This document shows positions 3,896 to 50,709 of a stretch of DNA of 64,000 nt, piece by piece. The notes beneath the pieces are model-generated. The model worked only from the letters and a program-made list of their open reading frames with translations. It was not told the DNA's origin and searched no databases. The DNA comes from Sphingomonas sp. AR_OL41 (GTDB taxonomy: Bacteria > Pseudomonadota > Alphaproteobacteria > Sphingomonadales > Sphingomonadaceae), in contig NZ_JARYTI010000021.1 in NCBI RefSeq assembly GCF_029911635.1, positions 1 to 64,000 of the forward strand, given 5' to 3'. A program made the position numbers and the translations under genes. Within the stretch, counting starts at the first letter, position 1, and each line of letters begins with the position of its first letter.

Positions 3896-4390
3896 TGCGG
3901 CGATCCTAGCGCAGTCGGAACATCGGGGGAACGGGTTGCGCGACGATGCGAGGCGATTTCCTGTCGGTTGCGACGCGACCAGGCGCTGGCCGCTGCATCT
4001 CCACGCGCGCCCTTCTTCCACTCACCGCGCTAGATACCCGGCGTGCATACATTGTGGCTGTCGTGAATCTCCCTCTCCCCTTGTGGGAGAGGGAAGGGGC
4101 CCATCGCGCAGCGATGGGAAGGGTGAGGGGGACTGACGCGGACGACGCGTTCGCGACTCCCCCTCATCCGGCGCTTCGCGCCACCCGTTTTGTCGTGTGC
4201 CGGGTCAATCATGCCCCCGGCATGATTGAGAAATGCTCCGGGGGAGCATTTCGACCCGTCACGCGCCAAAACGCCCACAAGGGGAGAAGGATCTTGCGCC
4301 GCTCTCGGATGATCTGTGAATTCCGTAGGGCGTGCGGCCCACCGCTAACGCCCCTTCCCTTTGGTCTCATGAGCGCCTAGCGTCTGCCCA
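3896..4390. other. Intergenic region with nested palindromic repeats
   Basis: This gap between the divergent helicase and thiC genes holds no convincing gene. From about 4068 it contains REP-like sequence: a hairpin around CTCTCCCCTTGTGGGAGAG, a second stem around CCCATCGCGCAGCGATGGG, then a CCGGCGCTTCGCGCC stem. The structured element at 4187-4272, listed separately, interrupts this REP material, which resumes as ACAAGGGGAGAAGG. The thiC promoter must lie within or after the array; no strong -35/-10 pair could be named. Confidence 0.7.
4187..4272. repeat. Two-hairpin repeat element, copy A (three-way-junction fold)
   Basis: An imperfect outer stem (GTTTTG...CGGGT with ACCCG...CAAAAC; two mismatches and one wobble in about 19 pairs) encloses two perfect hairpins. 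Hairpin 1 (4206-4228) has a 10-bp stem with loop CCC; hairpin 2 (4231-4251) has a 9-bp stem with loop GGG. The loops are complementary. The element lies inside a REP array. A second copy at 49798-49861 keeps the fold with different stem sequences. No coding capacity was seen. Confidence 0.7.
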
Positions 4391-6444
<2,054 letters not shown>

Positions 6445-49765: not shown

Positions 49766-50709
49766 TGCACGACGCGACAAACACCTCCCCGGTACGGAGC
49801 ATCGGGTTGGATTGCCCCCGGCAATCCAAGATCGTGCCGGGGGCACGATCGACCCGCTGCTGGGGACCGCTCGCCGAAGGCGAGGGGTGGAAGGGGGGCG
49901 CCACAAACGCCTCGCCTGCGGCAACCCCCCTCCACCCCTCGCCTTCGGCGAGCGGTCCCCCTCCCCGTTCCGGGGAGGTATTGGGGTCACTTTACCCCGA
50001 CGACATCGCAGCCCGCCTCGCCGGCACGCCGGAGCAGCGCGCCACCACCCTCCGCGCGCTCGCCGAAGCCGGGGTGGCCGACGCCCAGGCGCTGCTCGGC
50101 CAGCTGCTGCTCGACGGCAACGGCATCGCCAAGGACGAACCCGCCGCACTGGGCTGGTTCACCCGCGCCGCCGCGCAGCATCATCTGATGGCGATCAACA
50201 TGGTCGGCCGCTGCTACGATCTCGGCTGGGGCACCGCGCCCGACAAGGCGCGCGCCGCCGCCTGCTACCGCATCGCCGCCGAGCGCGGGCTCGATTGGGG
50301 CATGTATAATTACGCCACCCTGCTCGCACTCGGCGCCGGCGTGGCGGAGGACAAGCCCGCCGCGCTCGTCTGGTTCCGCAAGGCGGCCGCGCGCGGCAAT
50401 GCCAAGGCGATCAACTTCGTCGGCAGCTTCCACGAGGATGGCTGGGTCGTCGCCCGCGATGTTAAGGCGGCGGCCTATTGCTATGCCCGCGCCGCGCAGG
50501 GCGGCGATTTTCGCGGCGCCTTCAACCATGCCCGCATGCTCGGCGCGGCGGGGAAGATCGAGGAGGCGATCCACTGGCTGCGCCGCGCCGGTGAAACCGC
50601 GACCCCCGCCTTCGTCGCCAAGGCCAGCGCCTGGCTCGCCGCCGCCGATCTCCCCGCCTTCCGCCGACGCGGCGTACAGGCATTGCAGCAGGGCGCCGGC
50701 CTATGCTGA
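49765..50709 (+). CDS. SEL1-repeat protein with repeat-derived N-terminus
   Basis: A 314-residue protein of SEL1/TPR-like repeats (from about residue 75): [46 protein letters not shown] and similar 36-residue units. SEL1 proteins scaffold protein complexes; homologues lie between fiu-type receptors and PiuC genes. The ATG at 49765 overlaps the receptor stop (TGATG). Residues about 12-70 are encoded by palindromic DNA: the two-hairpin element at 49798-49861 and a 29-bp perfect inverted repeat at 49862-49960. The recognisable protein begins only at [12 protein letters not shown]. Either the repeats inserted in frame, or the true start is a downstream TTG near 49981. No export signal is seen. 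Confidence 0.75.
49798..49861. repeat. Two-hairpin repeat element, copy B
   Basis: An outer stem (AGCA-t-CGGGT with ACCCG-c-TGCT) encloses two perfect hairpins: 49807-49829 (10-bp stem, loop CCC) and 49830-49850 (9-bp stem, loop GGG). Stem sequences differ from copy A at 4187-4272, yet pairing is complete in both. It lies within the 5' end of the SEL1 gene and directly abuts a REP palindrome. Confidence 0.7.
49862..49960. repeat. Perfect 29-bp inverted REP pair inside the SEL1 gene
   Basis: The unit beginning GGGGACCGCTCGCCGAAGGC (49862-49890) is exactly reverse-complemented at 49932-49960, with 41 bases between. Each arm is itself a small hairpin (CTCGCC/GGCGAG). The whole block is in frame with the SEL1 protein. 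Confidence 0.8.

Follow-up and report, generated by a model that had tools for sequence, protein, structure and literature searches.

REPINs are tiny, dispersed and non-autonomous inverted pairs of hairpins. The substrate of a Stenotrophomonas RAYT is a perfect 8-bp palindrome closed by a loop of 3 nt; the enzyme cuts at CT, and cleavage is impaired when the loop is changed (PMC8266576). In the yeast element GC42 the target letters are AG, sequence changes concentrate in the loops and two sets of AG are left as footprint (PMC4478555), and double-hairpin elements of fungal mitochondria have been cited as mobile (PMC5910586; for Allomyces, Paquin et al. 2000). CGTC-tagged palindromes and the Rickettsia palindromic elements apparently have no dedicated transposase, and REPs inside genes are known (PMC3733652). 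Bacterial MITEs are short and dispersed, have inverted ends and carry no genes. Integron attC sites, finally, are recognized as a folded strand in which the stem sequence is largely free and unpaired bases set the polarity.

Here, we analyzed a 64,000-nucleotide stretch of DNA from Sphingomonas sp. AR_OL41 (the window) and verified two double hairpins in it, copy A at 4186-4273 (88 nt) and copy B at 49798-49861 (64 nt). The earlier note, made from the sequence alone, had reported both, and its description was right except for the ends and hairpin lengths of copy A. It had placed A at 4187-4272, which is one base short at each end, and had given hairpins of 10 bp and 9 bp for both copies; this holds for B (hairpin a 10 bp, hairpin b 9 bp), whereas in A they measure 11 bp and 10 bp. 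Each copy is built, in this order, from an outer stem ending in CGGG, hairpin a with the loop CCC, hairpin b with the loop GGG directly abutting it, an unpaired GA, and CCCG with the other arm of the outer stem. The GA makes the element polar, so that its two strands are not equivalent; the copies inspected for this can all be read with hairpin a first and hairpin b second. The outer stem has 19 positions with two mismatches and one G-T in copy A, and nine positions with one mismatch in copy B. When folded as single-stranded DNA, the three-way junction is the minimum-energy fold of both, with -34.0 kcal/mol (z = -8.7) for A and -26.2 kcal/mol (z = -7.0) for B, and in neither case did any of 200 shuffles equal these values. 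A fixed-letter pattern matches four times in the window, i.e. on both strands of copies A and B, with 0.01 matches expected, and a structural scan in which any loop was allowed returned A and B as the sole matches in the 64 kb. The parts of both copies and their surroundings are the following.

4186-4273, + strand: copy A, whole element, long form of 88 nt; the + strand has the a-b-GA orientation (R1 model match 57 bits on +, 49 on -)
4186-4204, + strand: copy A, outer stem, 5' arm, ends in CGGG
4205-4229, + strand: copy A, hairpin a, 11 bp, loop CCC at 4216-4218
4230-4252, + strand: copy A, hairpin b, 10 bp, loop GGG at 4240-4242
4253-4254, + strand: copy A, junction GA, unpaired; the fold draws the two letters between the hairpins, an equivalent register
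4255-4273, + strand: copy A, outer stem, 3' arm, begins with CCCG
4159-4185, + strand: host REP of copy A, left part, CCCCTCATCCGGCGC..CCACC; the same context at L098, L102 and L103
4274-4290, + strand: host REP of copy A, right part, CCCACAAGGGGAGAAGG
49798-49861, + strand: copy B, whole element, short form of 64 nt (model match 84.5 bits)
49798-49806, + strand: copy B, outer stem, 5' arm, AGCATCGGG
49807-49829, + strand: copy B, hairpin a, 10 bp, loop CCC at 49817-49819
49830-49850, + strand: copy B, hairpin b, 9 bp, loop GGG at 49839-49841
49851-49852, + strand: copy B, unpaired GA; the fold draws an equivalent register
49853-49861, + strand: copy B, outer stem, 3' arm, CCCGCTGCT
49784-49797, + strand: host REP of copy B, left part, CCTCCCCGGTACGG; one letter different from the empty REP
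49862-49890, + strand: host REP of copy B, right part, GGGGACCGCTCGCCG..
49952-49978, - strand: intact empty REP of the same type as that of copy B, CCTCCCCGGAACGG-GGAG-GGGGACCGC; the GGAG is missing at copy B

The intact REP with its GGAG lies about 90 bases beyond copy B, whose own REP is without these letters. Between the two halves of the REP around copy A, the TTCT expected from the REP palindrome is absent; this loss is inferred, no exact empty copy having been found in the sequence examined. At this site, the orthologous region of the nearest genome is about 85-87% identical. Just downstream of copy A, a TPP riboswitch (Rfam RF00059, 73 bits) occupies positions 4385-4494, ahead of the ORF 4522-6444, which by its position we take to be thiC.

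The element belongs to a large family. The exact fixed-letter pattern matches 51 times in 21 of 101 genomes of the genus (own genome included), compared to six matches for the reversed pattern, and three of the 51 (L032-L034) are unlike elements. The earlier note had proposed a covariance-model search for further copies, and such a search recovered many more, both in the own genome and in other sphingomonads: a model built from 11 copies, with 25 candidates scored per genome and a cutoff of E <= 0.001, matches in 149 of 201 genus genomes (own genome included). In the own genome it marks 33 distinct places, 27 of which parse as complete and six do not. The corresponding family search yielded matches in 28 of 199 genomes; these represent 15 of 96 genera, own genus included (three of the 28 genomes). 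Of its 26 loci (L206-L231), 22 parse with the identical plan, while L222, L223, L230 and L231 did not parse as complete. Both pattern and model contain the loops and the stems, and retrieval thus favors well-paired copies. A short form of 64 nt with a 9-bp outer stem can be told from a long form of 86-88 nt, the latter represented by copy A and L094 (88 nt) and by L021, L159, L221 and L224 (86 nt). At L025 and L088 two elements lie 50-100 bp apart. Three draft contigs (L145-L147; G051:C43, C44 and C67) start or end at an element, so that these repeats may break assemblies and be under-counted.

To describe what is conserved, 82 of 85 short copies were aligned; three rows (L022, L024 and L042), with hairpins in another register, were left out here and kept in the count of one-pair variants given below. 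In this alignment 2278 of 2296 cells are paired (99.2%) and 18 are not. Two-sided changes number 497 and affect 22 of the 28 pairs; a further 11 changes are one-sided with pairing retained. The covariation score of 0.625 compares to 0.162 in shuffles, none of 500 being as high, and to 0.05-0.13 when slid. The view put forward earlier that the element is kept for structure over sequence is supported by these compensated stems. No variation among the 82 copies is seen in the GGG that precedes the junction, in the first T-A pair of hairpin a or in either loop; GGGT is likewise found in 82 of 82 (alignment columns 7-10), and the GA in 78. The loops read CCC and GGG in 107 of 107 parsed cores, some of these in a wrong register; exceptions are L207 with CCA, L222 with apparently four C's, and L110 of the own genome, which looks decayed at the loop. 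A fold scan open to any 3-nt loops gave two matches in 1.6 Mb from four genomes, both of them CCC/GGG, and none in a Markov control; it is a strict scan that recovered two of three model matches in the scanned stretches. Since only CCC/GGG was returned, the search by itself does not account for the constant loops. In 1.6 Mb, perfect hairpins of at least 9 bp with the loop CCC or GGG occur six times, four of them within two elements and two without the collar. The suggestion that the two loops may kiss remains possible by sequence, and no data here bear on it.

Strong covariation of this kind could also be expected of a structured RNA, cis-regulatory or small, that is selected on the transcript. 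The architecture, a three-way junction whose loops may pair with each other, is reminiscent of riboswitches, and G-T is slightly more frequent than A-C, which also speaks for RNA. An RNA under selection, however, should tolerate G-U on the transcribed strand, and among the 2296 cells we find only 14 G-T versus 8 A-C and 2264 Watson-Crick pairs (6 versus 4 in the hairpins and 8 versus 4 in the outer stem, the latter numbers being too few to decide). Against RNA stand also the copies that lie in REPs in both orientations and within coding sequences, as well as the result at Rfam gathering scores, where the TPP riboswitch was the only match in the window and no family was found at the element sites. 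Hence, we consider a structured RNA very unlikely. From the fact that G-T is not clearly above A-C, the element likely behaves as DNA and not as RNA, although a mild G-T excess is not excluded; the formula "RNA or DNA" of the earlier note is refined in this direction.

The way in which the arms change was evaluated with variants that differ at one pair. Among these are 108 compensated doubles, 23 one-sided changes and five others, and 54 of the 108 doubles are transversions, for which no G-U intermediate exists. Cores with hairpin lengths other than 10/9 were excluded from this count, as they were from the counts of ends, flanks and REP-motif sites. Our inference is that, on fold-back of the strand, one arm serves as template for rewriting the other; selection alone with rare intermediates is not excluded. 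The earlier idea of selected stems is refined accordingly, in that perfect stems may result from hairpin-templated copying as well as from selection.

A REP-type motif lies within 25 nt at 67 of 75 short-form sites, compared to 58 of 2000 positions chosen at random. The motifs had been compiled from sites of this kind, and among the eight sites without one, several resemble REPs that have diverged. The ends of the element read AG..CT at 54 of 74 sites, and the commonest flanks are CC..CC (22 of 74) and GG..GG (16 of 74). For 26 of 75 distinct filled flank pairs an exact empty counterpart was found in 2.37 Mb, in a comparison limited to sites with the ends AG..CT, CG..CG, AT..AT or GT..AC; swapping the flanks as a control gave one match. 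The empty counterpart has a gap of 4 nt in 19 of the 26 pairs. The other gaps are 3 nt in three cases, 5 nt in six, and 18 and 22 nt in one each, whereby a pair may count twice and several of the 3- and 5-nt gaps look like differences in the length of a G- or C-run. The lost letters are mostly GGAG or its complement and thus come from the REP stem, namely from its 3' arm. Insertion of the element is therefore associated with replacement of 4 bp in 19 of the 26 pairs and with no target duplication. At L071, L194, L035 and L082 the outer stem continues into inverted REP halves, as if snap-back synthesis had copied one flank onto the other.

Insertions were also seen inside genes. At L174 the element lies within a malate synthase G gene, outside REPs, and is absent from 11 aligned orthologues, which belong to other species and are about 70-86% identical. 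Compared to L174, the orthologues are shorter by exactly 60 nt in seven cases and by 66, 66, 75 and 78 nt in the others; in the pair L174 and L239, which are alike at both edges, CAGC is swapped for 64 bp. The reading frame stays intact with 20 additional codons, corresponding to 20 extra residues relative to a solved structure. Further in-frame cases are a TrmFO gene (L024) and, here with a whole REP, an annotated cysteine desulfurase gene of Sphingomonas parapaucimobilis. The element is thus mobile in the sense that it occupies sites that also exist empty, while no transposition has been seen within one species. In this respect, the conjecture of the earlier note that the element is perhaps mobile into REPs is supported by REP sites with and without it and by a non-REP insertion with empty orthologues. 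Of the signs of insertion it had named, empty REP sites were found, though not as a same-species polymorphism, and target duplications were not, 4 bp of the target usually being replaced instead.

Two explanations bear on these sites. The first is an ordinary MITE: an unknown DDE transposase would bind its short terminal inverted repeats, mostly AG..CT, as a duplex, and the inner hairpins would be incidental. In line with it, the copies are dispersed, have no coding capacity of their own and end in terminal repeats of 9-20 bp. However, the inner hairpins and loops are structurally kept as well as the ends or better, the sequence of the terminal repeats varies, and target duplication is replaced by the usual 4-bp exchange, which makes this explanation unlikely. 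According to the second, there is no element at all but a by-product of REP palindromes rewritten by template switching during replication. Copies flanked by inverted REP halves, such as L071 and L194, are as expected of snap-back copying. Yet loops, GGG collar, GA bulge and ends are constant while the flanking REP sequence varies, and one and the same unit is found in several REP types and in a non-REP gene; we regard this second explanation as very unlikely.

A third rival is a REPIN-like element moved by a RAYT, i.e. an inverted pair of units cut at CT, each of them made up of the tag GGGT and a perfect palindrome whose loop has 3 nt. In favor of it, each strand reads GGGT(C) followed by an 8-10 bp palindrome with the loop CCC, most ends carry CT, and the Stenotrophomonas substrate (PMC8266576) resembles the element. 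We searched for Y1 genes with Pfam Y1_Tnp (E <= 0.001) and with a profile of three RAYT-like proteins of the own genome (below 1e-5). The copy-rich set comprised all genomes with at least 17 model matches except G000 and G084 (n = 18), the copy-free set was taken from 20 genomes without match after four fragmented ones had been dropped (n = 16). Six of the 18 copy-rich genomes contain a Y1 gene or remnant, while the 16 copy-free ones showed none (Fisher p = 0.020), and the own genome, which is copy-rich, has three RAYT-like Y1 genes (L142, L143 and L144; G000:C144, C123 and C17). Against a RAYT, no Y1 gene or remnant was detected at these thresholds in 12 of the 18 copy-rich genomes, and weaker profile matches occur in both groups. 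Around eight Y1 loci (the three of the own genome and five others), about 1.2-1.5 kb on each side showed no element and a single 8-bp hairpin, at L144; nor was a Y1 gene noted near those element loci that were examined for this. A second Y1-like fragment adjoins L144. In addition, the element has no GTAG tag, its stems are free in sequence and its insertion usually costs the target 4 bp. This rival is unlikely, and RAYT/Y1 was rejected as the general mover in view of the weak association and the 12 of 18 copy-rich genomes with nothing at the thresholds used, while a role as past mover is not excluded. Because no Y1 gene was detected there and no element near the eight Y1 loci, no enzyme can at present be named as the mover.

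Other carriers and sources were considered as well. A plasmid BLAST with copy A gave no match; with a composed query it returned seven records, all from one Sphingomonas parapaucimobilis strain or its species. A 3,975-bp circular record of this species (NZ_CP155767.1; L374:73-120) holds guaA, a tyrosine recombinase and AlpA, and apparently only the b half of an element, which possibly marks the attachment junction of an integrative element. The half-element pattern gave one unrelated match over the contig collection, a weak result, other carrier genera of the family evidently lying outside what was scanned. No element was found in a phage search. Among contigs filed as viral (IMG/VR), 8 of 29 stretches contain elements (L344, L345, L346, L348, L359, L360, L369 and L372, the first two on one contig), and these might lie at provirus edges. 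In six stretches inspected by eye, no transposase was noticed as cargo between elements or at short contigs, and no autonomous relative sharing the inverted ends was recognized. With respect to the replication strand, no bias was detected: the elements of four single-contig genomes divide 26 versus 20 (n = 46, p = 0.46), the underlying GC skew, with 20 samples each, being weak and noisy.

In conclusion, one strand of the element folds, by computation, to a polar three-way junction, the loops are near-constant, copies are dispersed in many genomes, empty sites exist, and 4 bp are usually replaced. Our preferred reading, which we hold with some reserve but above its rivals, is a non-autonomous mobile DNA element of sphingomonads that is recognized as a folded strand and whose arms are kept complementary by hairpin-templated copying. 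Recognition of the folded strand is inferred because the loops are constant. An unidentified enzyme would read this strand by its loops, GGG/CCC collar and GA bulge, and would join the ends, mostly AG..CT, into targets with G- or C-runs, mostly the 3' arm of REP hairpins. A 4-nt segment of the target would be lost, for example by trimming of a 4-nt stagger. The stems may drift freely, since snap-back of the strand during replication would carry a change from one arm over to the other, whereas the loops could not be rewritten by such copying and would be held by recognition. A bolder reading, to which we would give rather less credence, sees a transposable unit defined by DNA fold over sequence: a T-shaped strand with self-rewritten stems, in which nearly the only fixed letters are two complementary 3-nt loops, the GGG/CCC collar and the GA bulge, and which an undescribed enzyme swaps for 4 bp.

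If this interpretation is true, at least 170 of the searched genomes carry the element (149 in the genus, plus 25 from other genera). Repeat finders that work on sequence would be prone to break the family up into unrelated pieces, because conservation lies in the fold and the two loops. The stems would represent a natural experiment on palindrome perfection, in which selection stands against self-copying, and an unidentified enzyme with an unusual 4-bp replacement reaction would remain to be named. REP palindromes would be preferred landing sites, and the element would be able to add 20 codons in frame to a gene.

The earlier note knew of no named family with this design, and in the literature searched, which left out most subscription papers, we found no earlier description of the element; two REP surveys contain no word beginning with "sphingo" in their main text. 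REPINs and BIMEs with their RAYT (TnpA-REP) are alike in being small dispersed inverted hairpin pairs, and palindrome, 3-nt loop and CT are as in the Stenotrophomonas type. The element differs from them in having no GTAG tag, free stems, hairpins that abut in a three-way junction, a 4-bp replacement and no Y1 gene detected in 12 of 18 copy-rich genomes. RAYT REPs moreover have a palindrome sequence that is conserved within a family, while here 22 of 28 pairs change on both sides, and their gene is flanked by the repeat, which is not so at the eight Y1 loci examined. The CGTC-tagged palindromes carry their tag at one end, and paired CCC/GGG loops are not mentioned in the relevant sections of PMC3733652. 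Bacterial MITEs are similar in short size, inverted ends and the lack of genes, but our element shows no target duplication and keeps structure more than sequence. Unlike integron attC sites, it forms a three-way junction in which the 3-nt loops are constant. Like it, the double-hairpin elements of mitochondria and the GC clusters of yeast are small, mobile and hairpin-forming DNA. In GC42, however, the loops vary while they are constant here, an AG footprint stands against the loss of 4 bp, and the organisms are others. As commonly understood, a double-hairpin element has two adjacent hairpins, is dispersed and has filled as well as empty sites; all of this is met here, so that the element works alike, without evidence on common descent. 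It may thus represent a new form of small non-autonomous palindromic mobile DNA, nearest in kind to REPINs, mitochondrial double-hairpin elements and GC clusters, and possibly one whose mechanism is new as well.
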